A DNA stretch of 64,000 bases. Source: Maribacter luteus (GTDB lineage: Bacteria; Bacteroidota; Bacteroidia; Flavobacteriales; Flavobacteriaceae). Made by a program: the position numbers and the translations under genes. Where the stretch lies: contig NZ_WKJH01000021.1 in NCBI RefSeq assembly GCF_009674825.1, positions 159,044 through 223,043 on the forward strand, in the 5' to 3' direction. Below are positions 19,850 through 46,481 of the stretch, in pieces. The notes beneath the pieces are model-generated. The model was given only the letters and a program-made list of their open reading frames with translations, did not search any database and was not told the origin of the DNA. The stretch's first letter is position 1. Each line of letters begins with the position of its first letter.

Positions 19850-19944
19850 AACTGTGCTTTTTAATGTTTAAATTTTACAGTTCAAAAGTACAGTAGGAGG
19901 TAAGGGTTGAAAAGGTAAAAAACTGCCGTCGTATGGTAAAATTG

Positions 19945-25059: not shown

Positions 25060-27312
25060 ATGAAAAATTACTTGCTGTCAGCTTTTGTAACAATAGCTAT
25101 TATTTCCTCTTGTACTGAGAAAAAAGAAACCTTAGGACAATCAAAGAGTATTGTTGATTACGTGGATCCGTTCATTGGAACGGGAGGGCACGGGCATACT
25201 TATCCTGGGGCCACTTCGCCTTTTGGTCGGGTACAGCCAAGTCCTGACAACGGTACTACCGGTTGGGATTGGTGTTCGGGTTACCATATTACCGATTCCA
25301 TTATATCGGGTTTTGCACAATTGCACCTGAGTGGTACGGGTATAGGTGATTTGGCCGATGTGCTTTTGATGCCGACCAATTCGGAGATGGATCTAGGGTT
25401 GTTTGGAAAAAAAAGGGATTCTTTACCATATACATCCTATTTCTCACATAAAGATGAAGAAGCTTCCCCAGGGTATTATAAGGTACTTTTGAAAGATCCT
25501 GATATTGAGGTTGAGCTTACCGCTAATGATTATGTGGCGTATCATACATATACCTATAAATCGGCAGGTGAACCTTCTTTTGTTATCGATTTGGGATATG
25601 CGGTCAATTGGGACAAGCCACTCGAGAGTAGCATAAAGATGGAGGATAGTCGGCATATTGTCGGGTCTCGTTTTAGTACGGGTTGGGCAAAAAACCAAAA
25701 AGTGTTTTTTGCCATAGAAACTTCAAGCCCGATCATTCAACAGCGATTCATAGGGGATACATCGATAGGCATTGCGGCGACAGAAGTGAATGGTGTAAAA
25801 GCAGGAGGGCAGTTTTTCTTTAAGGATAATACGGAAAGTGTTGAGGTTAAAATTGCCGTATCATCGGTAAGTATCGAGAATGCCAAAGAGAATTTAAAGT
25901 TACAGGGCAGTTCAAGCTTTGGGGATGTGCGTGAAAAGACACAGGGGGATTGGAGTGGTCTTTTGTCCAACATCAAGGTAGAGACCTCGACAGATAGTTT
26001 AAAGACAATTTTTTATACGGCACTTTACCATGCCCAAGTGGCCCCGACCATATTCAATGATCTTAACGGGGAATTCAGAATGCAGAACGATAGTATTGCC
26101 AAAACTGATTTCAAGATGTATTCATCTTTATCCTTGTGGGATATCTATCGTGCGGAAACACCTTTGTTAAGTATTATGGATCCCAACCGATTAGACGATA
26201 TGGTCAAATCCATGTTGGCCTATTATGATGAGAGTGGGGTGTTGCCGGTATGGGTTTTATCCGGTAATGAAACAGGGACAATGCCCGGATACCACTCCGT
26301 TTCCATTATTGCCGAAGCCATTATGAAAGGACATTCGGCTTTTGATGTGCAAAAAGCATATGGTGCCATGAAAGAGACCATGATGGGCGATGAAAGGGGA
26401 TTGAAAGCGTATAAGAAATACGGATATATACCTTTTGAGGTAATGGATCAGTCCGTTTCCATAAGTCTTGAGTATGCCTATAATGATTGGTGTGTAGGGC
26501 AAGTGGCTAAGAAATTGGGCTACGAAGAAGATTTCAAATATTTTGATGAACGATCTAAAGCTTACCAGAACTTTTTCGACATCAGCTCAGGTTTCTTAAG
26601 GGGTAAATCGAAAGACGGAAAGAATTTTCACGAGCCTTTTGATCCCAAGTCATCAAACCACATAGAAGATACCGATTATACTGAGGGTAATGCTTGGCAA
26701 CATAGCTGGTATGTATTGCATGATGTAGACGGATTGATAAACCTACATGGAAGAAAAGAGTCTTTTGCCTTAATGGTAGAGCAGCTTTTTACTGAGGATT
26801 CCGATTTAAGTGGTCATAATGTTTCCCCGGATATCTCAGGACTCATAGGGCAATATGCCCATGGTAACGAACCGAGCCACCATATCGCCTATATGTTGAA
26901 CAAGGCAGGTGCCCCATGGCGTACCCAATATTGGGCACGAAAAATAATGGACACGCAATATAGTACTCAGCCAGACGGTTTGAGTGGAAATGAGGATTGT
27001 GGGCAAATGTCTGCGTGGTACATTATGAGTGCCATGGGTATTTATCCTATGAACCCAGCTTCGGGCGAATATGAAATAGGAAGTCCCATATTCGAAAAAA
27101 CCACCATTAAGTTATCCCAAGATAAGACTTTCGTGATATTGGCCCCTAATACATCAAAAGAGAACATCTATGTACAATCCGTAAAACTGAACGGAGAACC
27201 TCTTGATAAAACTTTCATTACCCATAACGATATTATTTCAGGTGGTACCCTAGAGTTCGAAATGGGCCCTGAACCTAATAAACATTGGGGAGTACAAACC
27301 GCAACTAAATAA
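25060..27312 (+). CDS. GH92 alpha-mannosidase, lipoprotein (copy 1)
   Basis: An exo-acting, calcium-dependent inverting alpha-mannosidase of family 92, 750 residues. It carries a lipobox with Cys18 (AIISSC), so it is membrane-anchored outside the cytoplasm. The N-terminal beta-sandwich starts DYVDPFIGTGGHGHTYPGA. The (alpha/alpha)6 domain carries TEGNAWQHSW with the likely acid Glu, YAHGNEPSHH, and GNEDCGQMSAWYI near the base position. It is the first gene of the N-glycan locus, with a 6-base gap to the symporter. The linkage trimmed (alpha-1,2, 1,3 or 1,6) cannot be read for certain. Confidence 0.95.
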   Translation: MKNYLLSAFVTIAIISSCTEKKETLGQSKSIVDYVDPFIGTGGHGHTYPGATSPFGRVQPSPDNGTTGWDWCSGYHITDSIISGFAQLHLSGTGIGDLADVLLMPTNSEMDLGLFGKKRDSLPYTSYFSHKDEEASPGYYKVLLKDPDIEVELTANDYVAYHTYTYKSAGEPSFVIDLGYAVNWDKPLESSIKMEDSRHIVGSRFSTGWAKNQKVFFAIETSSPIIQQRFIGDTSIGIAATEVNGVKAGGQFFFKDNTESVEVKIAVSSVSIENAKENLKLQGSSSFGDVREKTQGDWSGLLSNIKVETSTDSLKTIFYTALYHAQVAPTIFNDLNGEFRMQNDSIAKTDFKMYSSLSLWDIYRAETPLLSIMDPNRLDDMVKSMLAYYDESGVLPVWVLSGNETGTMPGYHSVSIIAEAIMKGHSAFDVQKAYGAMKETMMGDERGLKAYKKYGYIPFEVMDQSVSISLEYAYNDWCVGQVAKKLGYEEDFKYFDERSKAYQNFFDISSGFLRGKSKDGKNFHEPFDPKSSNHIEDTDYTEGNAWQHSWYVLHDVDGLINLHGRKESFALMVEQLFTEDSDLSGHNVSPDISGLIGQYAHGNEPSHHIAYMLNKAGAPWRTQYWARKIMDTQYSTQPDGLSGNEDCGQMSAWYIMSAMGIYPMNPASGEYEIGSPIFEKTTIKLSQDKTFVILAPNTSKENIYVQSVKLNGEPLDKTFITHNDIISGGTLEFEMGPEPNKHWGVQTATK

Positions 27313-27318
27313 GGTCGT

Positions 27319-29196
27319 ATGAACATTATAGATGTATCGATAATTCTTCTTTATGTTGTCCTTACCCTAGCTGTAGGTATTTGGGTATCTAAAAGGGCTT
27401 CAAAGGGTCTTAAATCTTATTTTTTAGGGGGCAACGGTATCAAATGGTATTATTTGGGTCTTAGTAACGGTTCGGGCATGTTCGATGTTTCCGGAACTGC
27501 CTGGATGGTAGGTATCCTGTTCCTTTATGGCGTAAAAAGTTTTATGTTCATGTGGTTATGGCCTGTATGGAACCAAATATTCATCATGATGTTCTTGGCC
27601 GTATGGATTCGGAGATCCAATATCATGACCGGTTCGGAATGGATGCTGACCCGTTTTGGTGATGACCGTGCAGGTAGGGCCGCCCATAGTATCGTGGCCA
27701 TTTTTGCCGTAGTCGCGGCCGTAGGGTTCATAGCCTATTTCTTTGAAGGGGTGGGTAAATTCATGACAGTTATTTTACCGTGGGATTTTGCATTGCAGGT
27801 CGGTGAATCTGTTTTGCTAAGTTCCGAGCAATCCTATGCTTTGATCATTATAGGTCTTACTACCTTGTATACGGTCAAAGGAGGTATGTTCTCCGTTGTC
27901 GCTACCGAGGTACTGCAATACGTTATTATGGTAATAGCCGGTATTTTAGTGGCCGGATATGCTTTTTATGAATTTTCGGATGTTCAGATCAATTCCATAA
28001 TATCGGATGAATGGAAAAATGTCAGTTTTGGATGGGAGTTGGGCGTACATTGGAGCGATAAGTTCGATTCATTCAACAAATTAATAGATTCAGAAGGATA
28101 TAAAATGTTCGGTGCTTTTATCGGCATGTCACTTTTTAAAGGTTTCTTTGCCAGTATTGCAGGCCCTACGCCTGGTTTTGACATGCAACGTATCCTTTCT
28201 ACCCGCACGGTTAAGGAAGCTGCCTATATGAGTGGTTTCACGGCCTTGGTGCTTTATATTCCTAGGTATTTGCTTATTGCGGGTATCGTGGTCATCGCAT
28301 TAGTGGTTCTTGGTCCCGGGATGGCGGCCGATGCCGGATTAACAGGGGCCGAATTGGAAGTTATACTTCCCAAGGTCATTAATTTTCATGTTCCAGTAGG
28401 GATCAAAGGGCTTCTTTTGGCTGGGTTGTTGGCAGCCTTCATGAGTACCTTTTCCGCATTCGTCAATGCAGGCCCGGCTTATATCGTGAATGATATCTAT
28501 AAGAAATATTTTAAACCCGTGGCTTCGGATAAACATTATATAAAAGCAAGTCATATTGCTTCGATCTTAGTGGTTGGTCTTGGGGTTTTTATGGGCTTCT
28601 TCGCAGAATCGATAAATTCACTCACCCTTTGGATAACCAGCGCTTTGTTCGGTGGTTATGTTGCTGCTAACTTTTTAAAATGGATATGGTGGCGCTTTAA
28701 TGGTTGGGGGTATTTCTGGGGTATGGCCTCTGGTTTGTTGATCGCGACCCTTCAGTTTATATTAGATCAGAACAAATCAAATTTGGAAGTGGGTACATGG
28801 TTGCATGATCTTGCCCAAATACCCGCCATTTACGTCTTTCCGATTATTTTTGCGGTGTCCCTGTTAGGGTCGTTCCTTGGTACCTTTTTAACTCCTGCCA
28901 CCCGTATGGAAACCTTGAAGGGTTTTTATAAGAACGTGCATCCATGGGGTTACTGGAAACCTGTTGTTGAAGCATTGAACAATGAAGGGGACCATATAAA
29001 AAAGAACGGCGAATTTTGGAAAGACATGGCAAATTGTGGTATAGGTATTATATGGCAGTCAAGTATGATCGTTTTACCGATATATTTCATGGTTAGGGAT
29101 TATCCCAAAACATGGGCGGCATTGGGTATTTTTCTGGTTACTTCGATAATCCTGAAGTATACTTGGTTGGACAAAATCAGAAAAATCCCGAATTAA
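27319..29196 (+). CDS. Sodium:solute symporter (SSS family)
   Basis: An inner-membrane transporter of 625 residues with 13-14 helices. The N-terminal helix pattern IDVSIILLYVVLTLAVGIW, the KGLKSYFLGG segment and GLSNGSGMFDVSGTAWM in the sodium-site region mark the SSS family. It probably imports a sugar made by the flanking enzymes. Free mannose or Man-GlcNAc is likely, since the next gene is a cytoplasmic mannosyl-GlcNAc phosphorylase. The gap to that gene is 32 bases. Confidence 0.9.
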   Translation: MNIIDVSIILLYVVLTLAVGIWVSKRASKGLKSYFLGGNGIKWYYLGLSNGSGMFDVSGTAWMVGILFLYGVKSFMFMWLWPVWNQIFIMMFLAVWIRRSNIMTGSEWMLTRFGDDRAGRAAHSIVAIFAVVAAVGFIAYFFEGVGKFMTVILPWDFALQVGESVLLSSEQSYALIIIGLTTLYTVKGGMFSVVATEVLQYVIMVIAGILVAGYAFYEFSDVQINSIISDEWKNVSFGWELGVHWSDKFDSFNKLIDSEGYKMFGAFIGMSLFKGFFASIAGPTPGFDMQRILSTRTVKEAAYMSGFTALVLYIPRYLLIAGIVVIALVVLGPGMAADAGLTGAELEVILPKVINFHVPVGIKGLLLAGLLAAFMSTFSAFVNAGPAYIVNDIYKKYFKPVASDKHYIKASHIASILVVGLGVFMGFFAESINSLTLWITSALFGGYVAANFLKWIWWRFNGWGYFWGMASGLLIATLQFILDQNKSNLEVGTWLHDLAQIPAIYVFPIIFAVSLLGSFLGTFLTPATRMETLKGFYKNVHPWGYWKPVVEALNNEGDHIKKNGEFWKDMANCGIGIIWQSSMIVLPIYFMVRDYPKTWAALGIFLVTSIILKYTWLDKIRKIPN

Positions 29197-29228
29197 ATTG
29201 TATAAATTAAATAAAAGAAAGAGATAGA

Positions 29229-30191
29229 ATGAAAATTCCTTGGCAAGATAGACCTGATAATTGTAATGATGTACTTTGGCGGTATAGTGAGAATCCCATT
29301 ATCAATAGGAACGATATACCTTCATCCAATAGTATTTTCAATAGTGCGGTCGTACCTTTCGAAGATGGCTTTGCCGGTGTGTTCCGATGCGATAACAAAG
29401 CCGTTCAAATGAATATTTTTGCGGGTTTCAGTAAAGATGGTATACATTGGGAGATAAATCACGAACCCATTCAGATGCAGGCCGGAAATACCGGAATGAT
29501 AGAATCTGATTATAAATATGATCCCAGGGTCGTGTTCATCGAGGATAGATATTGGGTTACATGGTGCAATGGGTATCACGGACCAACCATTGGTATCGCC
29601 TATACTTTTGATTTTAAGGAATTCTTTCAGTGTGAGAATGCCTTTTTACCTTTTAATAGAAATGGGGTATTGTTTCCTGATAAAATTAATGGGCGTTATG
29701 CGATGCTAAGTCGCCCCAGCGATAATGGCCATACACCTTTTGGGGATATTTATGTGAGTTTCAGTCCGGATATGAAGTACTGGGGCGAACATAGATGTGT
29801 TATGAAAGTGACCCCTTTTGAAGATAGTGCTTGGCAGAGTTGTAAGATCGGTGCGGGTACCGTTCCCATCCATACCAACGAAGGTTGGCTCATTTTCTAC
29901 CATGGGGTTATCAATACCTGTAACGGTTTCCGTTATTCCGTTGGTTCGGCAATATTGGACGAGAACGAACCTGATAAGGTCAAATATAGAACACAGCCCT
30001 ACTTATTGGCTCCTACTGAATTATATGAGCAAGTAGGTGATGTACCCAATGTGGTATTCCCTTGTGCGGCCTTACATTCTATAGAAGAAGATAAAGTGGC
30101 GCTTTATTATGGCGCGGCAGATACCGTTACCGCAATGGCATTCGGGCGTATTTCGGAAATCCTGGAATTTACAAAGAAGAATAGCCTTTAA
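29229..30191 (+). CDS. GH130 beta-1,4-mannosyl-GlcNAc phosphorylase
   Basis: Phosphorolysis of Man-beta-1,4-GlcNAc to mannose-1-phosphate and GlcNAc. The 320-residue chain has no signal peptide, so it works in the cytoplasm. It matches the GH130 subfamily that acts on N-glycan cores: [18 protein letters not shown] with catalytic D98, [40 protein letters not shown] and [14 protein letters not shown]. It accounts for the last step of N-glycan breakdown in this locus and is the strongest single pointer to the Man-GlcNAc substrate. Confidence 0.93.
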
Positions 30192-30206
30192 CGCAATACC
30201 CTAGTT

Positions 30207-31286
30207 ATGGATCACGAGTTGAATACCAAGAAAATAATCAGCCTAATACTTCTTTTGTTGTACATGGGGACTGTTTGGCTGGTGGCACAAGAAGCACCTA
30301 GGCAGTATGTGTCTTTTAAAACTGTGGATAAAATAAAAATTGACGGTTTAGGCAATGAGGATTCTTGGGAAAAAGCCGAATGGAGTGATTCTTTTATTGA
30401 TATAGAAGGAAAAAAAGAACCTACTTATAAGACCCAAATGAAAATGGTTTGGGATGAAGATTACCTGTATTTCTTAGCAAAAATGGAAGAGCCAAACGTT
30501 TGGGGAACATTAAAGCAAAGGGACACGGTCATTTTCTATAACAACGATTTCGAGATTTTTATCGATCCCGATGGGGATACCCATAATTATATGGAGTTTG
30601 AAATGAATGCCTTGAATACGGTTTGGGATCTTTTCTTGACGAAACCTTACCGAAATCAAGGTAAAGTACTTGATAATTGGGACATTCAAGGTGTAATGAC
30701 GGCGGTACATGTAGATGGCACCTTGAATAATCCCAATGATATAGATACGGGTTGGAGCGTGGAGATCGGGATTCCATGGGATGTTCTGAAAGAAGCAAAC
30801 TCCCATAATAACATCCCTGTCAACGAATTCTGGCGTTTTGGTTTTTCAAGGGTCAATTGGGATTTTGTTGTGACCGATGGAAGGTATTCCAGGAAAAAAG
30901 ATGCAACCGGTAAATATTTACCGGAATACAATTGGGTTTGGTCCCCGCAATGGGTAATAAATATGCATGAGCCCGAAAAATGGGGGTATGTTTATTTTTC
31001 TGAGAAGCAGGTTGGGTCAAAAGATGTTTTTACAATACCCGAAGATGAGCATGTTAAATGGTACCTCTACGAATTGTACCGTGATTTGATCAATAGTGAT
31101 AAACAGGAAGTTGCTTGGAAAAAAGCGGACGGACAGGTTTTTAGGGAGTCAAAAAAAATCTTGGGAAAAAAGATAACCCCAATATTGGAAAACCAGAAAT
31201 CAGGGTTTCTTCTTTGGGCAAAAAGTCCGTTTACGGGAAAAACTTTGATGATCAAGGATGATGGTAAATTTTTAAGTGTAGATTAA
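30207..31286 (+). CDS. Secreted CBM9-like carbohydrate-binding protein
   Basis: An exported protein of 359 residues with a hydrophobic leader (about residues 10-28, ending LVAQ). A family-9-like carbohydrate-binding beta-sandwich follows (about 35-240; DGLGNEDSWEKAEWSDSF, NNDFEIFIDPDGD and GWSVEIGIPWDVL). The C-terminal 100 residues are helical and of unknown role. No catalytic residues are recognised. It sits between the GH130 and GH92 genes with gaps of 15 and 4 bases, so it belongs to the operon and may hold glycans or glycopeptides in the periplasm. Confidence 0.8.
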   Translation: MDHELNTKKIISLILLLLYMGTVWLVAQEAPRQYVSFKTVDKIKIDGLGNEDSWEKAEWSDSFIDIEGKKEPTYKTQMKMVWDEDYLYFLAKMEEPNVWGTLKQRDTVIFYNNDFEIFIDPDGDTHNYMEFEMNALNTVWDLFLTKPYRNQGKVLDNWDIQGVMTAVHVDGTLNNPNDIDTGWSVEIGIPWDVLKEANSHNNIPVNEFWRFGFSRVNWDFVVTDGRYSRKKDATGKYLPEYNWVWSPQWVINMHEPEKWGYVYFSEKQVGSKDVFTIPEDEHVKWYLYELYRDLINSDKQEVAWKKADGQVFRESKKILGKKITPILENQKSGFLLWAKSPFTGKTLMIKDDGKFLSVD

Positions 31287-31290
31287 TTTT

Positions 31291-33546
31291 ATGCGTATAT
31301 ACAGAATTGTATTTTTTGTTTTTACAGGACTACTGTTCCAAACATCTTGCAAGAAAAAGGGGCAACCCATTGTAGAGGAAAATTTGACCCAATTTGTAAA
31401 TCCTTTTATAGGTACAGATGGTCCGGGTAATACCTATCCCGGTGCGACCGTGCCTTATGGGATGGTTCAGTTGAGCCCAGATATAGGAATCCCGGGATGG
31501 GATAGGATTGCCGGTTATTATTATCAAGATACCATAATCAGTGGTTTCTCGCATACGCATCTTACCGGTACGGGTGCCGGGGATCTTTATGATATTTTGG
31601 TCATGCCATCAAACAGCAGGTCGTCTAAAAGAATCAAGGAAAACGGATACCGGCCTTACTCAACCTTTGACCATGAAAAAGAGAGTGCTTCTCCGGGATA
31701 TTATTCGGTTGATTTGTTGGATTTTGATATAAAAGCGGAAATGACGGCAACCAAAAGGGTAGGTGTACAAAGGTATACTTTCCCTGCCGATGACAGTACC
31801 AAGGTAACTGTGGATCTTGGTTATGCACTTAACTGGGATAAACCGACCGATACTTATGTAGAGGTGGTCAATGATTCATTTATAAGGGGGTACCGGATGT
31901 CGGCAGGTTGGGCCAAGGACCAACGCCTTTACTTTTCAATGCATTTTTCAAAACCCTTCAGAAGTTATGTGGTTTATAAAGACGGTCAGGAAGTAAATGC
32001 GCCCGTCAAAGGTGTCAATACGAAAATTGAGTTGAACTATGCTATGGTCGATCGTGAGCATTTGATTATCAAAACCGGACTTTCAACAGCTGGTTTTGAA
32101 GGTGCGGATGCTGCAGTAGCTGAAGAAACCAAGGGTTTTTGTTTTGATTGTTATAAAGAAAGTGCCAAAGAGGTGTGGCAGCAAGAACTATCGAAAATAC
32201 GGGTTAGTAGCAACGATAGGGACAAAAAAGGTACATTCTATACTATGATGTATCAATCGATGTTGGCACCCACCTTGTTGAGCGATTTGGATGGAAAATA
32301 TAAAGCGGCCAATGATACTATTGGTGTAGCACAAGGTTTTGATCGGTACGATACTTTTTCCCTCTGGGATACTTTTCGGGCCGCGCATCCATTATACACG
32401 ATAATCCAACAAGAAAAGGTAGCTGATATGGTAAAATCCATGTTGGCGCATTATAAGGAAACTGGGATTTTACCGGTTTGGTCCATGCAAGGTAATGAAA
32501 CGAATATGATGATCGGTTACCATGCGGTGCCGGTAATTGTCGATGCTTATTTCAAAGGGTTTGCTTTTGACAAGGAATTGGCATATAAGGCATGTAAGGA
32601 AAGTGCAATGGTCAATGATCGCCAAATAGATGTTTATCGGGAAAAGGGATTCATTCCTGTGGATGACGGGCACGAGAATTGGTCGGTATCCAAGACGATG
32701 GAGTATGCCTATGATGATTGGTGTATTGCGATGTTCGCCAAGGATTTAGGTCATGAACAGGATTATAAGGAATTTTTGAAACGTTCCGAAAATTGGAAGA
32801 ACCTTTATAATGAAAAGACCTCATGGTTACAGCCAAAAAATGAAAATGGCAGTTTTATTACACCATTTGTTCCCAAGGAATACTCACCCTATTTCTGTGA
32901 AAGTAACGCCTGGCAATACTATTGGTACGTACCTCAGGATATAGAAGGGCTTATAACTAAAACAGGGGGTAAGGAGCGTTTTAACCAAAAGCTCGATTCC
33001 ATGTTCACCTATTATCCCAAAGCTGGTGACAAACTCCCGATTTTCAGTACGGGAATGATCGGGCAATATGCCCATGGGAACGAACCCAGCCATCATGTGG
33101 CATATCTTTATAATTATTTAGATCAACCATCGAAGACACAGACTTTGGTGCGACAAATTCTGAAAGAACAATATGCCAATGCGCCAAATGGCCATTGTGG
33201 TAATGAAGATTGTGGGCAAATGTCGTCATGGTATATTTTTGGGGCACTTGGTTTCTATCCTGTAAATCCGGCACAAGGCATTTATGATTTGGGTATACCT
33301 TTGTTCAAAGAGGTTGAAGTTGAAGTGGGAGAAGGTAAAATACTCAGGATTATCCAGAAGAATTTCTCGGCAGAAAACAAATACGTTGAATCCGTAATTT
33401 TAAATGGGGAAACATTGGATAGGAATTTCATCACACATAGCGAAGTCATTTCGGGTGGTGAATTGGTTTATGTGATGACCAACGACCCTGAGAATGTGGA
33501 TGGGAAAAAATTGAAATCCCCCGAAAAAAATAAAATATATAGATAA
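31291..33546 (+). CDS. GH92 alpha-mannosidase, lipoprotein (copy 2)
   Basis: A 751-residue family 92 enzyme with lipobox FQTSC (Cys20). It has the same domain order as copy 1: FVNPFIGTDGPGNTYPGA at the start of the beta-sandwich, CESNAWQYYWYV with the likely acid Glu, YAHGNEPSHH, and GNEDCGQMSSWYI. Copies 1 and 2 are the closest relatives among the four, sharing the GNEPSHH block. It overlaps the operon tightly (4-base gap before, 2 after). Confidence 0.95.
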   Translation: MRIYRIVFFVFTGLLFQTSCKKKGQPIVEENLTQFVNPFIGTDGPGNTYPGATVPYGMVQLSPDIGIPGWDRIAGYYYQDTIISGFSHTHLTGTGAGDLYDILVMPSNSRSSKRIKENGYRPYSTFDHEKESASPGYYSVDLLDFDIKAEMTATKRVGVQRYTFPADDSTKVTVDLGYALNWDKPTDTYVEVVNDSFIRGYRMSAGWAKDQRLYFSMHFSKPFRSYVVYKDGQEVNAPVKGVNTKIELNYAMVDREHLIIKTGLSTAGFEGADAAVAEETKGFCFDCYKESAKEVWQQELSKIRVSSNDRDKKGTFYTMMYQSMLAPTLLSDLDGKYKAANDTIGVAQGFDRYDTFSLWDTFRAAHPLYTIIQQEKVADMVKSMLAHYKETGILPVWSMQGNETNMMIGYHAVPVIVDAYFKGFAFDKELAYKACKESAMVNDRQIDVYREKGFIPVDDGHENWSVSKTMEYAYDDWCIAMFAKDLGHEQDYKEFLKRSENWKNLYNEKTSWLQPKNENGSFITPFVPKEYSPYFCESNAWQYYWYVPQDIEGLITKTGGKERFNQKLDSMFTYYPKAGDKLPIFSTGMIGQYAHGNEPSHHVAYLYNYLDQPSKTQTLVRQILKEQYANAPNGHCGNEDCGQMSSWYIFGALGFYPVNPAQGIYDLGIPLFKEVEVEVGEGKILRIIQKNFSAENKYVESVILNGETLDRNFITHSEVISGGELVYVMTNDPENVDGKKLKSPEKNKIYR

Positions 33547-33548
33547 TT

Positions 33549-35897: not shown

Positions 35898-35948
35898 GTT
35901 TTGGTTTTGATGGACTTTGATCGTTAAAAACATATAACTAAAAATGTT

Positions 35949-37265: not shown

Positions 37266-37314
37266 CTTAGAATATAGATTCATTAAGGGTATAAGAAATT
37301 AAAAATCAGGGAGC

Positions 37315-39540
37315 ATGAAGAATAAACTAACAGTGGTATTTTTGTTGATCATTAGTATTTCGTTGGCCCAAAAGTCCCCTGTTGACTATGTGAATCCTTT
37401 TATAGGCACCTCCAATTTCGGAACCACCAATCCAGGCCCGATTGCCGTTCGTGGTATGGCGAATGTTTCTCCGTTTAATGTGGCAGGGCCTCAAAATCTA
37501 CCGTTAGAGAAAGACAGTCGATGGCTTTCTACCCCTTATGTACATGAAAACACCTTTTTAACAGGTTTTAGCCATGTGAACCTGAGTGGAGTGGGTTGCC
37601 CTGAACTAGGGGTGATTTTGGCGATGCCGACTACAGGAGCCATTGTGACCGACCACTTGGAGTATGGCAGTACCTATTCCAATGAGATAAGTCAGGTAGG
37701 TTATTATTCCAATATTTTGGATAAATATGATATTAAGGCCGAAGCCACGGCTACTACAAGGGTTGGGGTCAGTAAGTATTCGTATCCTGCTGGGGAGTCG
37801 AATATTCTACTGAATTTAGGTTTGGGGCTTACCAATGAGGAAGGCGCAAGTATTAGAGTAGTATCAGCCACTGAAATCGAGGGAGTACGTTCCGTAGGTT
37901 CCTTTTGTTACTATAAACCGGAAGAAGCTTACCCTGTATATTTCGTGGCACGTTTTTCCAGACCTGCCGATGAATTTGGGGTTTGGAAAAAACCAACAAC
38001 ATACAAAGGGGTAGAATCTGAATGGATGGGATATAATGGTAAAACCCGATTGATGAAAGGTTTTACCAAAGAAGTAGTCGGTGATAGCATCGGTGCTTAT
38101 ATGCGATATAATTTTGAAAGTCCGACCGAGGTTGAAATGAAAATCGGTATTTCATATGTAAGCTTGGACAATGCAAGGGAGAATTTGGAGAAGGAAACCT
38201 CGGGAAGGACTTTTAATGAAATTTTACTTGATGCCCGTAAAAAATGGAACCAATACCTGTCCAAAATAGAGGTTGAAGGTGGTAGCGAAGAGGATAAGAC
38301 CATTTTTTACACCGCTCTGTACCACACCTTGATTCACCCCAATACCTTAAACGATTTCAATGGGGACTACCCTAAAATGAAAACACGGGAAACCTTAAAT
38401 ACAAAAGGCACCCGATTCACTGTATTTTCCCTTTGGGATACCTATCGAAATCTGCACCAATTAATGGGTTTGGTATATCCCAAGCAGCAATCGGATATGG
38501 TGAAGAGTATGCTGCAGATCTATGATGAAAGCGGTTGGCTTCCCAAATGGGAATTGAATGCCACTGAGACCACGACCATGGTCGGGGATCCGGCCGGAAT
38601 CATTATTGCCGATACATATTTGAAGGGCATCCGTGATTTTGATGTGGAAAAGGCCTATAAGGCCATGCTTAAAAGCGCTGGGCAGTTAGAGGACAATCCA
38701 CTACGTCCCGGCCTTCAGGATTATATCGAAAAAGGATACCTCACTACAAAAACCACCAATAGTGGTTCGGTATCCACCACCCAAGAGTATAATATTGCCG
38801 ATTATGCCATTGCCCAATTGGCAAGGGAATTGGGTAAGAAGGACGATTATAAACGCTTTTCGAAACGGGCAATTTCATATCGGAAACTGTTCGATAAGGA
38901 ATTCAACCTCCTTAGGCCCCGAAATGATGATGGTAGTTGGCTAACACCTTATAACCCTGAGTCTGGGGCCAATTTTGAAAAAAACCTCGGTTTCATAGAA
39001 GGCAATGCATGGCAATATACCTTTATGGTTCCCCATGATATTAAAGGGTTGATGAAATTGATGGGAGGAGCAAAACCTTTTGCCCAGCGCTTACAGGATG
39101 TTTTTGATAAGGGGCAGTTTGATATGGCCAATGAACCGGATATTGCCTATCCGTATCTCTTCAATTACGTGAAAGGCCAAGAATATAGGACCCAGAAAAT
39201 GGTTTCCGGTTTATTGAGCAAGCATTTTAAAAACAGTCCTGATGGTATTCCCGGTAATGACGATACGGGCACCATGTCGGCCTGGGCGGTTTTTTCCATG
39301 ATGGGCATATATCCTGTGAATCCCGCAGAACCCATGTATGCTTTGACCAAACCTAAGTTCGATAAAATCACCATTCATTTGGATGGGGAATATTATAAGG
39401 ATAAGGCTTTGGTAATCAAATCCGGTAAATCTTTCAAAGGAGAGGCTATTCAAAGAATCAGTATCGATAGCAAGCCCTTGAAAGGGTACTTTATTAGTCA
39501 TCAGGATTTGGTGGGCACTTCAGAAATTTTCATAGATTAG
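37315..39540 (+). CDS. GH92 family enzyme, divergent (copy 4)
   Basis: A 741-residue family 92 enzyme with a type I signal peptide (ISLAQ) and no lipobox, unlike the other three copies, so it may be freely periplasmic. Family marks are present: DYVNPFIGTSNFGTTNPG, IEGNAWQYTF with the acid Glu, and GNDDTGTMSAWAVF. The PSHH block is replaced by NEPDIAYPYLF, which suggests another linkage specificity. It is the last enzyme of the run; a 446-base gap separates it from susC. Confidence 0.93.
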   Translation: MKNKLTVVFLLIISISLAQKSPVDYVNPFIGTSNFGTTNPGPIAVRGMANVSPFNVAGPQNLPLEKDSRWLSTPYVHENTFLTGFSHVNLSGVGCPELGVILAMPTTGAIVTDHLEYGSTYSNEISQVGYYSNILDKYDIKAEATATTRVGVSKYSYPAGESNILLNLGLGLTNEEGASIRVVSATEIEGVRSVGSFCYYKPEEAYPVYFVARFSRPADEFGVWKKPTTYKGVESEWMGYNGKTRLMKGFTKEVVGDSIGAYMRYNFESPTEVEMKIGISYVSLDNARENLEKETSGRTFNEILLDARKKWNQYLSKIEVEGGSEEDKTIFYTALYHTLIHPNTLNDFNGDYPKMKTRETLNTKGTRFTVFSLWDTYRNLHQLMGLVYPKQQSDMVKSMLQIYDESGWLPKWELNATETTTMVGDPAGIIIADTYLKGIRDFDVEKAYKAMLKSAGQLEDNPLRPGLQDYIEKGYLTTKTTNSGSVSTTQEYNIADYAIAQLARELGKKDDYKRFSKRAISYRKLFDKEFNLLRPRNDDGSWLTPYNPESGANFEKNLGFIEGNAWQYTFMVPHDIKGLMKLMGGAKPFAQRLQDVFDKGQFDMANEPDIAYPYLFNYVKGQEYRTQKMVSGLLSKHFKNSPDGIPGNDDTGTMSAWAVFSMMGIYPVNPAEPMYALTKPKFDKITIHLDGEYYKDKALVIKSGKSFKGEAIQRISIDSKPLKGYFISHQDLVGTSEIFID

Positions 39541-39986: not shown

Positions 39987-42900
39987 ATGAATCAAAAATT
40001 TAATTATGTATTGCTGTTTGTTGCGTTGCTCTTTATCCAAGGAGCAATAGCCCAAACCGTATCAGGTACGGTTATCGATAATTATGGTACGCCTGTTCCC
40101 AGTGTCAATGTGATTGAAAAAGGCACAACAAATGGTACATCGACGGATTTTGACGGAAACTATTCTCTTGATGTTTCCGATCTCTCAGGTACATTGGTAT
40201 TTTCTTCCTTGGGTTTTGTGAGCCAGGAAATTAGTATTGGGGGTAAATCTTCAATAAATGTTACATTAACAGAAGATGTGGAGCAGCTAGGTGAAGTGGT
40301 GGTTACCGCTTTGGGTATTAAAAGGGAAAAGAAGGCTTTAGGTTATTCGGTTCAGGAAGTTTCAGGTGATGATATTTCAAGTGCAGGGGATGGTAATGTT
40401 ACAACTGCTTTGCAAGGAAAAGTAGCAGGGGTGAACATCACAACTACTGGAGGTATCGGAGGTAATTCAAGAATTGAATTAAGAGGTAACAGTTCCCTTG
40501 CGGACAACAATGATGTATTGTGGGTCGTTGATGGTGTGCCTTTTTCTTCAGGTGATACCAGTGATGGTGGTATTTGGGGAGGTACTTCCAATGGTGGAGG
40601 CCTTTTAGATATCAACCCAGAGGATATTCAATCTATGTCAGTGCTAAAAGGAGGTAGTGCAGCAGCTTTATATGGCTCTCGAGGTGCTAATGGTGTTGTT
40701 GTCATTACCACAAAACAAGGGAGCAAATCTCAAGGTTTAGGGATTTCGTATACTGGTAGTGTTGTTGCTTCAAATGCAGCATATTTTTTGGATTTGCAAG
40801 AAGAATTCGGTCAGGGGTCCGAGGGTGTTTATGATAGATTAGGTACTTCTAGCTGGGGTCCGCAATTCGATGGTGAGGCAAGAGAGGCCTGGACAGGGGA
40901 AATGTTGCCTTATGTAGCTGAGAAAGATAGGTTGAAAAACTTTACAAGGACAGGGGTGACCAGTAGGCATTCCGTTTCTCTTTCTAATGGAGGGGAAAAA
41001 GGTTCTTATCGAGCCACTATTTCTAAAGATTGGACAGAAGGAATTTATGCCAACAATGAAATAAAGAAAACAAATTTTGATTTAAAGGCTTCTTACGAGA
41101 TTAACCCATGGCTTAATATTGACTCTAAGATTTCTTATATTAATACTAAGGGGCAGCAACGTCCGGAAATAGGTTATTATAGTGTGGTTTCTTATTTTAA
41201 TTCAATGCCTATGAACATAAGGCTTCAAGATTTGAGTCCAGGATACGAGATTATTGGTGGCGAACATGTTGAGACCTTATATACAACTGCAAATGCAAAC
41301 TATCGAAACCCTTATTTTTTACAGGAACAAGTAGTTAATAATGATGAGCGTAATCGTTTCTTTGGTAATTTTACCGCGAACATATCCTTAACGGATGCTT
41401 TGAAACTACGATTACGGTATGGTCTCGATAACTATAGGTATGAGACAGAAAGTGGTTATCTCTACGGGGATAATGTTAGTGACCAGAAGCCTAATTATAA
41501 TACAGGGGAAAAATTCTTCTCCGAAGAAAACATGGAATTATTGTTGACCTACAATAAAGATCTTAGTGAAGATTTTAATTTAGGGGTCAGTGCAGGAGCA
41601 AATAAAATGTACAGTGATTCTGATGAGTTGTCTGCGAGCTCTGGAAAATTGATTTCAGAAGAAACCTACTTTTTGTCAGGAGCTGAAGATTCTTCAACAA
41701 TAAGCGCAACTGAAAATTTTACAGAACGCGAAATACAATCTGTATATGGTTTTGTGGATTTATCGTATAAAGGCTATTTGTTTTTAAATGCGACTGCAAG
41801 AAATGACTGGTCCTCAACCTTACCAGATGATAATAACTCATATTTTTATCCCTCGGTGAACCTTAGTGGTTTGGTTTCCGAAATGGTTGAAATGCCCGAT
41901 TGGGTTCAATATTTCAAGTTGAGGGGTTCATGGGCTCAAGTAGGTAAGGATACCGATCCATACAATACTTCCCAAGTATATACCTTAGGTTCGGGAAGAT
42001 TTAATTTGACTACATCCAGTGAGCCCAATTTATTGGTCAATAGTGATTTGAAACCTGAAATTTCAACTTCTTCAGAAGTTGGGGCAGAGCTTAGGTTGTT
42101 CAAAGGGATTTTAGGAATCGATTTTACATATTATTCAGAAGATACAGAGAACCAAATCGTAATTGTTGATCTTGATCAAAGTACAGGTTATCAAGGTAAA
42201 TACGATAACCTTGGTTTGGTTGTAAACAGGGGTATAGAGCTTATGACCACGATTACCCCTATTAGAAAGGAAGATTTCAGGTTTGATATCACCTTGAATT
42301 ATGCGAAGAACAAGGGTGAAGTGAAAGAATTGGTGACTGCTGAAGATGATGATGAGTTTTATACTTTTATTGAAGACAACGGAGGTGTCCAGGTAAGGGG
42401 AACAGAAGGAGAGAAAATGGGAGACATTTTCGGTTATGCTTATGAAAGAAGTGATGACGGTCAGATTATCGTCGATGAAGATGGTTTGCCTGTAAGGGCG
42501 GCCGAAAGACAGGTTCTTGGTAATATTCAACCTGACTTTACTGGTTCTATAGGACTTAATGTCAATTACAAGAACTTTTTCATAAGTGCGTTGTTAGGAA
42601 TGCAAGAAGGTGGTGAAATCTATTCTTTGACAGAAGCCAGTGCTGTGGGCTCAGGAAATGCCTTAAGAACTGCAGAAAACGATAGAATGGCATTTTTCGT
42701 TGATGGTGTAATGGCAGATGGTTCATCTCCTACACAAATTGTTTCGGCCCAAGAATATTGGGGTAGGGTTTCAGGAATAACAGAGGAATTTATCTACGAT
42801 GCCTCATATATGAAACTGAGAGAGGTTTCTATAGGTTACAATTTACCATTGTCACTTTTCGGAGGAGAGTCTAATTTCATTAGAGAAGCTAGAATATCAT

Positions 42901-43055
42901 TGATAGGGCGTGATTTGTTTTATATTTATAGGGATACACCGGGAACTGTTCCGGATGCCAGTGCATTTAGCACATCATACGGTGCTAAGGCATTTGATTT
43001 TTCTCCTGTACCGGTAACAAGATCGGTTGGTTGTTCTGTAAACCTTAAATTTTAA
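39987..43055 (+). CDS. SusC/RagA-family TonB-dependent outer-membrane transporter
   Basis: A 22-strand TonB-dependent porin that imports glycans, 1022 residues. After the signal peptide (ending AIAQ23) come a carboxypeptidase-regulatory-like domain (VSGTVIDNYGTPVPSVNV), then the plug (GDGNVTTALQGKVAGVNI, YGSRGANGVVVITTK) and the barrel. There is no STN domain before the plug, so it does not signal to an anti-sigma factor. It pairs with the SusD 11 bases downstream and presumably takes up the N-glycan released by the PNGase. Confidence 0.96.
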   Translation: MNQKFNYVLLFVALLFIQGAIAQTVSGTVIDNYGTPVPSVNVIEKGTTNGTSTDFDGNYSLDVSDLSGTLVFSSLGFVSQEISIGGKSSINVTLTEDVEQLGEVVVTALGIKREKKALGYSVQEVSGDDISSAGDGNVTTALQGKVAGVNITTTGGIGGNSRIELRGNSSLADNNDVLWVVDGVPFSSGDTSDGGIWGGTSNGGGLLDINPEDIQSMSVLKGGSAAALYGSRGANGVVVITTKQGSKSQGLGISYTGSVVASNAAYFLDLQEEFGQGSEGVYDRLGTSSWGPQFDGEAREAWTGEMLPYVAEKDRLKNFTRTGVTSRHSVSLSNGGEKGSYRATISKDWTEGIYANNEIKKTNFDLKASYEINPWLNIDSKISYINTKGQQRPEIGYYSVVSYFNSMPMNIRLQDLSPGYEIIGGEHVETLYTTANANYRNPYFLQEQVVNNDERNRFFGNFTANISLTDALKLRLRYGLDNYRYETESGYLYGDNVSDQKPNYNTGEKFFSEENMELLLTYNKDLSEDFNLGVSAGANKMYSDSDELSASSGKLISEETYFLSGAEDSSTISATENFTEREIQSVYGFVDLSYKGYLFLNATARNDWSSTLPDDNNSYFYPSVNLSGLVSEMVEMPDWVQYFKLRGSWAQVGKDTDPYNTSQVYTLGSGRFNLTTSSEPNLLVNSDLKPEISTSSEVGAELRLFKGILGIDFTYYSEDTENQIVIVDLDQSTGYQGKYDNLGLVVNRGIELMTTITPIRKEDFRFDITLNYAKNKGEVKELVTAEDDDEFYTFIEDNGGVQVRGTEGEKMGDIFGYAYERSDDGQIIVDEDGLPVRAAERQVLGNIQPDFTGSIGLNVNYKNFFISALLGMQEGGEIYSLTEASAVGSGNALRTAENDRMAFFVDGVMADGSSPTQIVSAQEYWGRVSGITEEFIYDASYMKLREVSIGYNLPLSLFGGESNFIREARISLIGRDLFYIYRDTPGTVPDASAFSTSYGAKAFDFSPVPVTRSVGCSVNLKF

Positions 43056-43066
43056 TAGTTAAAAAC

Positions 43067-44605
43067 ATGAAAAAAAGAATAATATTTTTAGGAATGGTGC
43101 TATTGACTTTTGTGGTTGGTTGTACTGAGGATTTTGAAGAGATGAATACGCCTAGTAATGTAATTACGAAGGTTGATCCTTCTTATGTGATTAATGGGAT
43201 GTTCCAAAATCCACTTAGTAATTATCAAAGGAACATTAATCTATACCCTGATTTTTATTCCCAGTACTGGTCAAATATCGTGTCAGGTTTTGAATCACCA
43301 CGATATGAGTATGTTGATGGGTGGATAGGAAATCAATGGAATGAGTTTTATACGGGTCCTTTAGCGGATTATAATGCACAAATCGGTTTTTACGGAGAGG
43401 ATCCCGCATATACCAATGTACTGGCCCAAATGGAAATTTGGATGTGTGCCGAATGGCAAAGAATGACTGATACTTATGGTGATATCCCTTATTTTGGGGC
43501 AGGTACCGGAGAGACTGTTCCATACAATTCACAGCAAGAAATTTATTATGACCTTATAAGTAGATTGAAAGTGGCTGTTGATGCTATTGATTCTGATGAT
43601 TCCTCCCAATATGCCTTTCCAGCTAATTATGACCTTATTTATTCTGGAGATTTGGAAAAATGGAAGCGATTTGGTAATTCATTGCGATTAAGATTGGCCA
43701 TGAGAATGTCCAATGTTGATCCTGATAAAGCACGTACCGAGGCTGCCGCAGCTATAGCTGATGGAGTAATGACAAGTAATGCGGATGGAGCCCATATTCC
43801 ATTGTGGAGTTCGGGTTGGTATGATTATCATCATCAAATGGCTTGGAACTGGGATAATACAAGGGCATCTAGAACCTTTACAGATTATTTATACGGCCAA
43901 TCAAGTGTAGGTGAGGATCCTCGGGCATGGAAATGGTTTACCTATAAAGATGATGACGATGTACTTGCAGATGAGAGTGTTATCACAGGTATCGAAAATG
44001 GATATAATACTTTACCCGCAAATGCTAAGGCATATGCAACTATTAATTTGGATGGAGGTTATGTAGGCTTTGTAGGTGATGGGGCCGATATCCTAATGTA
44101 TATGCCTTATATGTTTTATTCAGAAACCGTGTTTTTGAAAGCAGAGGCGGCCCTTAGGGGATGGACAGCTGGAGATGCTAATGGACTATATATTGAAGGT
44201 GTACAGGCGTCTATGGATTATGTTGGGGTAGATGCAACATCAGCCAGCGATTATATTAGTGGTTTACCAAGTTTGACAGGGCCTAACGAAGAACAATTAA
44301 AACAATTGATTACCCAAAAATATATTGCCAATTTTCCAAATGGATCTGAAGCATGGGCAGATTTCAGAAGAACCGACTATCCAGACATTTCTCTGCCATT
44401 GGATGGTGTAAGTGGTAGTTCTAGTGTCGCAGCTGATACATGGGTGAAACGAATTAGGTATCCTGATAATCAGCATAGTTTAAATAGTATCAGTATGCCA
44501 AGTACCCAAAATACCGTCGATAGTGATAGGATGGACATACGACTATGGTGGGATACTGCCGATACCAAAACAAAATCTGGTGGTTTAATGAGTAGCAACT
44601 TTTAA
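43067..44605 (+). CDS. SusD/RagB-family glycan-binding lipoprotein
   Basis: A 512-residue surface lipoprotein (lipobox FVVGC, Cys19) that forms the lid of the SusC channel. Typical features are the N-terminal segment after the lipobox, the MEIWMCAEWQRMTDTYGDIP TPR region, GNSLRLRLAMRMS, and the C-terminal KYIANFPNGSEAWADFRRT block. The ligand is inferred to be N-glycan from the neighbours, not read from the sequence. It is cotranscribed with susC and the LamG gene. Confidence 0.95.
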   Translation: MKKRIIFLGMVLLTFVVGCTEDFEEMNTPSNVITKVDPSYVINGMFQNPLSNYQRNINLYPDFYSQYWSNIVSGFESPRYEYVDGWIGNQWNEFYTGPLADYNAQIGFYGEDPAYTNVLAQMEIWMCAEWQRMTDTYGDIPYFGAGTGETVPYNSQQEIYYDLISRLKVAVDAIDSDDSSQYAFPANYDLIYSGDLEKWKRFGNSLRLRLAMRMSNVDPDKARTEAAAAIADGVMTSNADGAHIPLWSSGWYDYHHQMAWNWDNTRASRTFTDYLYGQSSVGEDPRAWKWFTYKDDDDVLADESVITGIENGYNTLPANAKAYATINLDGGYVGFVGDGADILMYMPYMFYSETVFLKAEAALRGWTAGDANGLYIEGVQASMDYVGVDATSASDYISGLPSLTGPNEEQLKQLITQKYIANFPNGSEAWADFRRTDYPDISLPLDGVSGSSSVAADTWVKRIRYPDNQHSLNSISMPSTQNTVDSDRMDIRLWWDTADTKTKSGGLMSSNF

Positions 44606-44621
44606 CCTTTAAAAAAGTATT

Positions 44622-46481
44622 ATGAAAATTAAAAATAGAATAAATAAAATTGCGATAGGTCTATTATCGGTGACCATGGCTCTTTTCCTGGTAATTTCTT
44701 GTGATGATGATGACGATTCTACAGGAAGTTTCAGTCTTACTGAATTGGAAAGTGTTATTTCCCAAGCAGAAGCATTGATATCGGAAAGTGAAGAAGGTAT
44801 AAATGCAGGTGATTATCAACCTGGTTCCAAGGCTGAATTGGAAAGTGTTGTTACTTGGGTAAATTGGAGAATAAACAATTCTAAATCTCAAGAAAACATC
44901 GATGATGCTGCTTACAAATTGAATGCGGCCATTGAGACCTTCTTAGCTAGTACTGTCTCACCCGCAATGCCATGGATTCAACAAGAAAATGATACCTATA
45001 TTAGAATTTCCGATAATATCAAAACGGTATTAGACGGGGCTTTCACGATTGAAACGCAAGTGTATGCAGTTGATCTTAACCAAAAAGGGTACTCGAACAA
45101 CTTGTTTTCTGCAGAACAGTCTGGACCCGATAGTGGCTTTGGAGTCAGGTATTTCGGTACGGGAAATATTCAGATCGTAACAGGTGATGGAAGTACTTGG
45201 TTAGATTCTGGCGATCAAGCTGCCGGTAAGATGGTTGGTGGTGAATGGATTGATCTTGCTTATACCAATTCCGGCTCTGAGCAAAAACTATATATTAATG
45301 GTGAATTAGTTGCTGAACAAAGTCATACGCACCTTTTGGCTGCAGATGTTTCTTTCGTAATAGGTAACAGTCCAACTTGGACAGATCGTGTCGTTAATGC
45401 TTTGGTAAGGGAATTTAAAATATGGGATACTGTATTGGATCAAAGTACTATTCAAGGTAATATTGGATCTTCAGTTGATGGGACCGAAGCTAATTTGGAA
45501 TGTTACTTCCCGTTTGGGTCTGATTTAGGGTCTAGTTTCAGTGATGCTACAGGCAATTATACGGCCACCTTGGAGGGCTCAATTGATTGGGTTTCTGAAC
45601 CGCCGGTGATTATATTGGATTATACGAATTTAAATGCCGCAATTGAGGAGATTACGGAGTTCAGGTCAAGTGTCGAAGAGGGTACTGAGGATGGTGATTA
45701 TCCAGTAGGAACATTGGATTATCTTGATGAATTGATAGCTGAAGCAAATGAAGCTTTGGAAAGTGAAGGTAGGCAAACAGCTTTGGACGATATGGCTACA
45801 TCACTATCATCAGCCATAACTTTGATCAATAGTATGTTGGTAGGGGATACTGACGGTATTTATATTGACCGGGATAATGCTGATGCAATTGGTCTACAGA
45901 TTACACCAAATTATACACCTCAAGGGGATTATACAGTAGAATTCGATGTAAAGGTTGAGTCATTGTTCGGTTATGGTACTGGCGAATTCTTTAATAACGG
46001 AACATTTGGAGTTTGGGTCTACGGATATGAGGAGCTTACCGAAGAAAATGTGTTGAATTCTGGAGGATTATGGAACTTTACCGATGCCGGAGCAGGTTGG
46101 CAAGGGCCAGATACGGACCCACTTGCTATTTCAGTTGATCAATGGCAACATGTGGCAATTGTACATGATGATGCAGCTCGTACAACAACACTGTATGTAG
46201 ATGGAGAACAAATGGGGCAAGATTCTGATATAGGAGCACCAAATGTTTCTGGATGGGGTGAGATTTGGCTCGGTAATGGCTGGGGTAAAATGGATGGATT
46301 TATTAAGGATTTCCGACTATGGGACGTAGCTAGATCACAAGGTGAATTGGATGCTGAGATTTCTGGCAATGAAACGGGCTTGCACATTTATTTCCCATTG
46401 GATAAGGTTAATGGAGTTAAGTTTGCAGATGAGACCGGTAATTATAGTGCGGAAATGAGAGGAATAGAATGGAATAATTAA
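44622..46481 (+). CDS. LamG-domain surface lipoprotein (SGBP candidate)
   Basis: A 619-residue lipoprotein (Cys27 in FLVISC) at the position where surface glycan-binding proteins sit in such loci. It is internally duplicated. A helical FIVAR-like unit (about 37-110; QPGSKAELESVV) plus a LamG/concanavalin-like domain (about 112-290) is followed by a second helical unit (about 320-395; YPVGTLDYLDELIAEA) plus a second LamG domain (about 400-615). The LamG parts end with FIKDFRLWDVARSQ- and VREFKIWDTVLDQ-type strands. It probably captures glycan or glycoprotein on the cell surface. Confidence 0.82.
   Translation: MKIKNRINKIAIGLLSVTMALFLVISCDDDDDSTGSFSLTELESVISQAEALISESEEGINAGDYQPGSKAELESVVTWVNWRINNSKSQENIDDAAYKLNAAIETFLASTVSPAMPWIQQENDTYIRISDNIKTVLDGAFTIETQVYAVDLNQKGYSNNLFSAEQSGPDSGFGVRYFGTGNIQIVTGDGSTWLDSGDQAAGKMVGGEWIDLAYTNSGSEQKLYINGELVAEQSHTHLLAADVSFVIGNSPTWTDRVVNALVREFKIWDTVLDQSTIQGNIGSSVDGTEANLECYFPFGSDLGSSFSDATGNYTATLEGSIDWVSEPPVIILDYTNLNAAIEEITEFRSSVEEGTEDGDYPVGTLDYLDELIAEANEALESEGRQTALDDMATSLSSAITLINSMLVGDTDGIYIDRDNADAIGLQITPNYTPQGDYTVEFDVKVESLFGYGTGEFFNNGTFGVWVYGYEELTEENVLNSGGLWNFTDAGAGWQGPDTDPLAISVDQWQHVAIVHDDAARTTTLYVDGEQMGQDSDIGAPNVSGWGEIWLGNGWGKMDGFIKDFRLWDVARSQGELDAEISGNETGLHIYFPLDKVNGVKFADETGNYSAEMRGIEWNN

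Follow-up and report, generated by a model that had tools for sequence, protein, structure and literature searches.

In Bacteroides thetaiotaomicron, the polysaccharide utilization locus (PUL) for high-mannose glycans, BT3983-BT3994, encodes a SusC/SusD pair, a surface mannose-binding protein and periplasmic mannosidases for α1,2 (BT3990), α1,3 (BT3991) and α1,6 (BT3994) linkages (PMC7021837, PMC10154615). In marine Flavobacteriia, "sulfatase-free GH92-rich PULs" have been described that combine GH92 and GH130 genes, sometimes with a CBM9-containing gene, and that carry no sulfatase but do include GH20 and GH18 (PMC6794258). Here, a locus resembling both was analyzed in Maribacter luteus, at positions 25060-46481 of a stretch of 64,000 nucleotides (hereafter the window; contig C18, positions 159044-223043) from a genome of 4.65 Mb that is 99.96% complete.

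As in the B. thetaiotaomicron PUL, the locus has SusC and SusD, a probable surface glycan-binding protein and mannosidases, one of which (GH92c) is a relative of BT3990; as in the marine PULs, it holds GH92, GH130 and CBM9-like genes and no sulfatase. It differs from the former in the release step, which in B. thetaiotaomicron is taken at the surface by the GH18 endo-β-N-acetylglucosaminidase (ENGase) BT3987, whereas the operon in the window has an exported PNGase, a GH130 protein and a symporter, and from the latter in having neither GH20 nor GH18. GH18 gave zero matches across the whole host genome, as did GH85 (searched in this genome alone), so the B. thetaiotaomicron arrangement, with a GH18 ENGase as release enzyme, is not the one found here.

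We consider it likely that the locus is a PUL-type system for N-glycans whose sole known means of release is a PNGase F-type amidase. Although PNGase F is a routine laboratory reagent, its role in bacterial food chains is seldom clear, and the strain offers a compact case in which, by genome content, no other release enzyme is known. The type of gene set is known; a PNGase with neither GH18 nor a close GHL10 protein is new among the surveyed relatives, and the stronger lead came from the neighbours rather than from the window. In the open-licence literature, nothing was found on Maribacter together with N-glycan and PNGase, and nothing beyond PMC9522356 on PNGase with GH92, GH130, polysaccharide utilization and N-glycan. 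The term "N-glycan" appears nowhere in the text of PMC6794258, and PNGase goes unmentioned in its passages on these loci; the present locus suggests that the marine sulfatase-free GH92-rich type be read as N-glycan PULs.

Gene content and the release enzyme

The original prediction of eleven plus-strand genes (four GH92 enzymes, a GH130 protein, an SSS symporter, a CBM9-like protein, a PNGase F-type amidase, SusC, SusD and a LamG protein) agreed with the list of open reading frames (ORFs), eleven of which fill the span, and with Pfam, where all family calls for the eleven proteins exceeded the curated cut-offs. In operon order the intergenic gaps are 6, 32, 15, 4, 2, 51, 49, 446, 11 and 16 bp, that is, 2-51 bp everywhere except before SusC (446 bp). 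Four proteins have both the catalytic and the N-terminal GH92 domains (PF07971, 543-580 bits), and account for four of the eight GH92 matches in the host genome. When ten of the proteins (SusC left out) were given to NCBIfam, matches above cut-off were obtained only for the four GH92 proteins; the symporter and GH130 stayed below every cut-off, and no match at all was returned for the PNGase, CBM9-like, SusD and LamG proteins. Also as predicted, none of the eleven proteins had a Pfam match to GH18, GH85, GH20, GH29 or GH33 at E 0.001.

The features that define PULs in Bacteroidota were all found, namely a SusC/SusD pair (39987-44605), carbohydrate-active enzymes and a putative regulator (LytS/LytR, 23058-24898). 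The SusC-type TonB-dependent transporter (39987-43055, + strand; PF07715, Plug, 73 bits; PF13715, CarbopepD, 59 bits) is followed on the same strand by a SusD-type surface lipoprotein (43067-44605; PF12741, 277 bits), with a lipobox at Cys19 and then TEDFEE, and by a LamG/DUF4972 lipoprotein (44622-46481; PF13385, Laminin_G_3, 120 bits; PF16342, 33.6 bits), probably a surface glycan-binding protein, with a lipobox at Cys27 and then DDDDD. Signal peptides and lipoboxes were called throughout by a simple hydrophobicity script.

The amidase (35949-37265, + strand) carries both N-glycanase domains (PF09112, N-glycanase_N, 197 bits; PF09113, N-glycanase_C, 174 bits) and is the single PF09113 match in the host genome. 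Among solved structures it was closer to 4qhb and 3ks7 (369 and 367 bits) than to PNGF-II 4r4x and 7zgn (221 and 202 bits). Its Asp237 (IDTW) aligned with Gly of 4r4x and 7zgn (IGNY/IGNW), and Asp occupied this position in 18 of 18 aligned PNGases, the one in the window included. Since PNGase F itself did not surface in the profile search of the PDB, the position of its Glu118 was placed through the PNGF-II alignment and PMC9522356, in which this site is Asp in group 1 and Gly in group 2; PDB entries were assigned to the proteins of that paper partly by our own reading. By the Asp and both N-glycanase domains the enzyme is a group 1 PNGase, with predicted N-glycan release. The group 1 enzyme BF0811 of Bacteroides, which has the same two Pfam domains, the Asp and an apparent signal peptide I, frees high-mannose and complex N-glycans but not plant N-glycans (PMC9522356), and the substrates predicted for the window enzyme are likewise high-mannose and complex N-glycans that are not core α1,3-fucosylated. 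The N-terminus of the latter also resembles a type I signal peptide. Unlike the group 1 PNGases of Bacteroides, it has an N-terminal extension of ~40 residues, shared with its nearest named homologues in Maribacter (loci L009-L011, 80-85% identity) and absent from the other aligned sequences, and its activity is a predicted one.

Release by PNGase rather than by an ENGase, as originally proposed, was thus supported by a 99.96% complete genome free of GH18 and GH85 and by the conserved group 1 Asp; by genome content, the PNGase is the only known release enzyme of the host. The proposed high-mannose substrate calls for one correction: group 1 PNGases take complex N-glycans as well, and the choice rests on the locus having no other exo-enzymes. 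Most likely, the substrate is N-glycans without core α1,3-fucose, of the high-mannose type. We regard it as unlikely that the locus is instead the mannose-core half of a system for complex N-glycans (hybrid ones, or those with an α1,6-fucosylated core) from marine animals or algae, whose other half would be a cluster on contig C24 (L031 5273-18220, - strand) with, in order, GH20, GH29, GH92, sulfatase, GH20, GDSL-like esterase and GH43 genes. The presence of this cluster in the same genome would suit such a system, as would the activity of group 1 PNGases on complex N-glycans (PMC9522356) and the GH163-type, GH29 and GH20 genes that stand beside the same block in related loci, but the cluster lies on a different contig and includes a sulfatase, and four GH92 genes with no other exo-glycosidase in the locus fit mannose-only antennae. 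No SusC/D was found among the eight ORFs of the C24 cluster that were searched.

Mannosidases, GH130 and the chitobiose core

GH92a (25060-27312, + strand; PF07971, 570 bits), a lipoprotein with a lipobox at Cys18, had 7zgm and 6f8z as its best solved relatives (593 and 582 bits), and GH92b (31291-33546, + strand; PF07971, 576 bits) had 6f8z (620 bits), the two proteins being 41% identical. As 6F8Z (BT3130) is an α1,3-mannosidase (PMC9522356) and we infer that 7zgm is the B. massiliensis GH92 α1,3-mannosidase of the same study, GH92a and GH92b are probably α1,3-mannosidases. GH92c (33549-35897, + strand) matched BT3990 (2wvx/2wzs) with 1053 bits, and its Trp86 and Ile-His-Glu at 609 align with that protein; we read these residues as the Trp (N-domain) and His-Glu (C-domain) set of α1,2-mannosidases in PMC9522356, and GH92c is predicted to be a BT3990-type α1,2-mannosidase. 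GH92d (37315-39540, + strand; PF07971, 543 bits) is an outlier, with 7zgm as best solved match at only 387 bits and with ANEPDIAY substituting for HGNEPSHH/HGNQPIQH. Because the three mannosidases of B. thetaiotaomicron take off α1,2-, α1,3- and the first α1,6-mannose (PMC10154615, PMC7021837), the α1,6 linkages were given to GH92d, which may perhaps take them.

The best solved match of the GH130 protein (29229-30191, + strand; PF04041, 230 bits) was Uhgb_MP (4udg; 503 bits over 317 aligned residues), followed by 5ayd as the next protein (456 bits). Its N-terminus is shorter than that of Uhgb_MP and is not hydrophobic, and no signal peptide was evident. Uhgb_MP is a Man-chitobiose phosphorylase (PMC8950772), and a β-1,4-mannosyl-(chitobiose/GlcNAc) phosphorylase activity is predicted for its relative in the window. 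The earlier call of a Man-GlcNAc phosphorylase was right as to family; its substrate was corrected to Man-GlcNAc2, because release by PNGase keeps both GlcNAc residues on the core (PMC10154615). The SSS Na+/solute symporter (27319-29196, + strand; PF00474, 93.8 bits) encoded upstream is the proposed Man-GlcNAc2 importer, and the model thereby predicts a Na+-coupled transporter for this trisaccharide. In 40 fetched GH130 loci (two of them with an identical GH130), the symporter gene was directly before GH130 in 37 and the CBM9-like gene directly after it in 35.

The GH130 relatives include β-1,4-mannooligosaccharide phosphorylases (5ayd, 456 bits), and GH92-rich PULs have also been assigned to α-mannose-rich polysaccharides (PMC6794258), as would be expected if the target were free or fungal/algal α-mannan or manno-oligosaccharide, with GH130 acting on β-1,4-manno-oligosaccharides and the PNGase a mere passenger. 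This is very unlikely, given that the eleven genes had no Pfam match to GH76, GH99, GH125 or sulfatase, that PNGase and GH130 are associated over 397 genomes (see below), and that the group 1 Asp is kept in all 18 aligned PNGases.

For an N-glycan PUL with PNGase release, the following pathway can be proposed, with all functions predicted from sequence. SusD and the LamG protein would bind a glycopeptide at the surface and SusC would import it; the exported PNGase, by its family and signal peptide, would cut the GlcNAc-Asn bond in the periplasm. GH92c would take off α1,2-mannose, GH92a and GH92b α1,3-mannose and GH92d, perhaps, α1,6-mannose. The remaining Man-β1,4-GlcNAc2 would enter the cytoplasm through the SSS symporter, and GH130 would convert it to mannose-1-phosphate and chitobiose, as Uhgb_MP does. 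Chitobiose would then be cut in the cytoplasm by an enzyme encoded outside the locus, most likely a GH3 protein on contig C19.

Genome-wide, three GH20 genes were found outside the locus (four matches, one gene being in two pieces); an exported GH20 could cut chitobiose only after mannose removal, which the pathway places in the cytoplasm. The C19 GH3 protein has no evident signal peptide and contains KHFPGHGDT-DSH, which we take to be a NagZ-type motif, and it is the best candidate for cytoplasmic chitobiose cutting. It stands in a row (L093 2440-8813) with a Glucosamine_iso/PIG-L (NagB/PIG-L-like) fusion, a distinct GHL10 protein and a major facilitator superfamily (MFS) transporter, a run suggestive of amino-sugar or peptidoglycan recycling. 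A GH94 protein on C18 was considered as a chitobiose phosphorylase and rejected (1360 bits to cellobiose phosphorylase vs. 532 to chitobiose phosphorylase). A GH94-like gene on C21 adjoins an MFS transporter, and a mannose-6-phosphate isomerase-like cupin protein is encoded in the window 11 kb from the locus (13039-14133, - strand).

Related loci and the CBM9-GHL10 pair

The survey covered 397 genomes of the family, 65 of which had a GH130 of this type (66 genes). PNGase was counted at 153 bits or more (41 matches); six matches of 97.8-107.8 bits, two of them from GH130 genomes (G115 and G311), were scored as absent, as were those at or below 70.5 bits, though all exceed the Pfam cut-off. Frame length served as a proxy for type, with type 1 below 500 residues and type 2 above. 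CBM9-like proteins were counted at 470 bits or more (89 of 110 matches) and GHL10 was called close at 530 bits or more (65 of 100 matches); for CBM9, GH130 and GHL10, at most five first-look candidates were scored per genome, and copies may have been missed. Strong PNGases were of group 1 length in 34 genomes and of type 2 length in 7, with both in three; a CBM9-like gene was present in 88 genomes and GH18 in 78. Group 1-length PNGase occurred together with GH130 in 26 genomes (Fisher p 1.9e-16, uncorrected for kinship), and in 22 the two genes were no more than 40 kb apart on the same contig.

Among the 65 GH130 genomes, that of the window was the only one with a group 1-length PNGase and neither GH18 nor a close GHL10. 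Sixteen had a close GHL10 with neither GH18 nor a strong PNGase (a weak PNGase match is present in five GHL10-only genomes, G117, G152, G339, G348 and G374), and five had none of the three. Relatives rarely have a PNGase with no endo-cutting enzyme of the usual kinds; in the other genomes of the genus in the survey, G032 and G258, GH18 lies ~2.6 kb from the PNGase. Compactness, claimed originally for the locus, therefore describes this strain and not the locus type, as relatives often add GH18, GHL10, glycosylasparaginase-like, GH20, GH29 or GH163 genes. The M. polysiphoniae locus has GH47 at the place of the 446-bp gap, and that of M. arenosus has GH18, GH29 and DUF4838, which we take to be GH163. 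The fetched loci are a non-random set (17 from the PNGase search and 38 hand-chosen, mostly from GH18-free genomes) and mostly end at ~20 kb, with unlabelled ORFs searched in part.

Several observations weigh against an N-glycan PUL of the proposed kind. The co-occurrence tests ignore phylogeny. Where related GH130 loci do have SusC and SusD, these are variable (34-87% and 29-89% identity), and the imported glycan may differ accordingly. Group 1 PNGases also free complex N-glycans, and GH20 and GH29 genes are present elsewhere in the genome. GH92d is divergent, and sequence gives no linkage for it; no NCBIfam equivalog names GH130, the best being mannobiose phosphorylases (BtaManbiosPhlase, 180 of 550 bits); and the signal-peptide and lipobox script is simple and missed the lipobox of GH92b. 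Finally, the locus has no chitobiose step and all three host GH20 proteins look exported, which makes the last step of the pathway a conjecture.

The CBM9-like exported protein (30207-31286, + strand; PF06452, 40 bits, residues 45-196) is proposed as a glycan-binding partner. Its AlphaFold model (mean predicted local distance difference test score, pLDDT, 76) had CBM9 7nwn as best fold match (E 6.8e-10), and a CBM9 fold is predicted. The gene was within 217 bp of 61 of the 66 GH130 genes, and it also occurred without GH130 in 24 genomes; in ten such regions, GHL10 and SusC were beside it in L064 and L066, and GHL10 and GH92 genes in L058. Of the 40 fetched GH130 loci, 26 encode a GHL10/DUF4015 protein of ~370 residues, its gene usually following the CBM9-like one; examples of these TIM-barrel lipoproteins are at L012 3219-4319, L016 6229-7371 and L068 7776-8885. 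Over the 397 genomes, 62 of 65 close GHL10 genes had a CBM9-like gene at a distance of 3 kb or less (300 bp or less for 47 of them), and 11 of 13 members of a second, more distant clade had one within 75 bp; none of 22 still more distant matches, the host gene on C6 included, was within 400 kb of one. GHL10 was also considered as a replacement of GH18 in the slot after CBM9 and rejected, since both co-occur in 26 of the 65 GH130 genomes and stand side by side in L068. In the vicinity of the CBM9-GHL10 pair, a few genes away, L066 (12220-14592) and L068 (12245-16112) have planctomycete-type PSD1/PSCyt genes, and L068 a DUF1501 gene as well.

These associations also bear on whether the chitobiose core is mainly cut by an unlinked GHL10 protein of the host (C6 or C19) or by the CBM9-like protein, with the PNGase trimming leftovers. 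Such a division of labour would agree with the conservation of CBM9-like genes alongside GH130 and, among relatives, alongside GHL10, and with the GHL10-domain proteins that the host encodes on C6 (scoring 274 bits against the close family) and C19, but the C6 gene belongs to the distant group never found near CBM9-like genes, the C19 gene is part of an amino-sugar cluster and the CBM9-like protein, as modelled, matches a carbohydrate-binding fold and not an enzyme; we hold this to be extremely unlikely, and PNGase remains the preferred release enzyme of the strain.

In the related loci, a glycosylasparaginase-like gene (PF01112, Asparaginase_2; e.g. L012 6604-7590, and 17 further GH130 loci, one of them a duplicate) was present in 17 of the 25 non-redundant loci that have both GH130 and GHL10, vs. 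0 of 14 loci without GHL10 (Fisher p 2.5e-5, for chosen loci and without kinship correction); in the same loci there was no link with PNGase (p 0.21) or GH18 (p 0.36). The substrate of glycosylasparaginase is GlcNAc-Asn, the stub left by an endo-cut. On account of this companion gene, GHL10 was read as an endo-enzyme: our hypothesis is that the CBM9-paired GHL10 group is probably an ENGase, a further class of N-glycan-releasing enzyme, and the pair with its glycosylasparaginase-like link is a lead to a new deglycosylating enzyme. The fold leaves the substrate unfixed, because the GHL10 model (mean pLDDT 81) matched Cwp19 (E 8e-13), then β-amylases, with PgaB at rank 8. A single activity for the whole family is counted against by Deinococcus radiodurans DogH, reported with GHL10 and said in the title of PMC9967864 to act on starch; E. 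coli DigH is presumably another member. The GHL10 domain of Cwp19 is a peptidoglycan lytic transglycosylase (PMC6016235), and DigH cuts denuded peptidoglycan glycans (PMC12288456).

The window locus has no GHL10, and the host carries its glycosylasparaginase-like gene on C15, away from the locus, with 62% identity to the L012 one. Tentatively, and with somewhat less than even confidence, the release step of Flavobacteriaceae N-glycan loci may be interchangeable, with a GHL10-CBM9 ENGase class in many of them, which would leave a GlcNAc-Asn stub for a glycosylasparaginase, and PNGase as the sole release enzyme in the window strain, which has kept the CBM9 partner and where intact Man-GlcNAc2 would pass through the Na+ symporter to the cytoplasmic phosphorylase. 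Nothing joining GHL10, PF02638 or DUF187 with N-glycan was found in the open-licence literature.

Regulators and other features of the window

A two-component pair, missing from the original prediction, is divergent from the operon and lies 161 bp upstream of it (23058-24898); it consists of a LytR-type response regulator with receiver and LytTR domains (23058-23768, - strand; PF00072, PF04397) and a LytS-type histidine kinase (23768-24898, - strand; PF06580, 90.9 bits), and probably controls the operon. A divergent LytS homologue (54-67% identity) was beside the block in five of the 40 GH130 loci (L015, L034, L038, L049 and L056), many of which end before the LytS position; weak matches (29-34%) were at other positions in L053, L055 and L057. 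A tblastn search of the 446-bp gap upstream of SusC with proteins of relatives revealed no relic of a lost GH18, GH47 or other gene. A Bacteroidota-type promoter motif, searched as one regular expression in five stretches, had no match.

Outside the locus, a gene duplication at 18992-20802 was considered and rejected, the two 285-residue proteins being unrelated. Just downstream of the locus, a LuxR-type response regulator and a TPR histidine kinase are encoded at 47215-49843 (- strand), and further on a BlaR1-type M56 peptidase (52428-54134, - strand), whose C-terminal TonB plug match reached 23.7 bits vs. a cut-off of 23.9.

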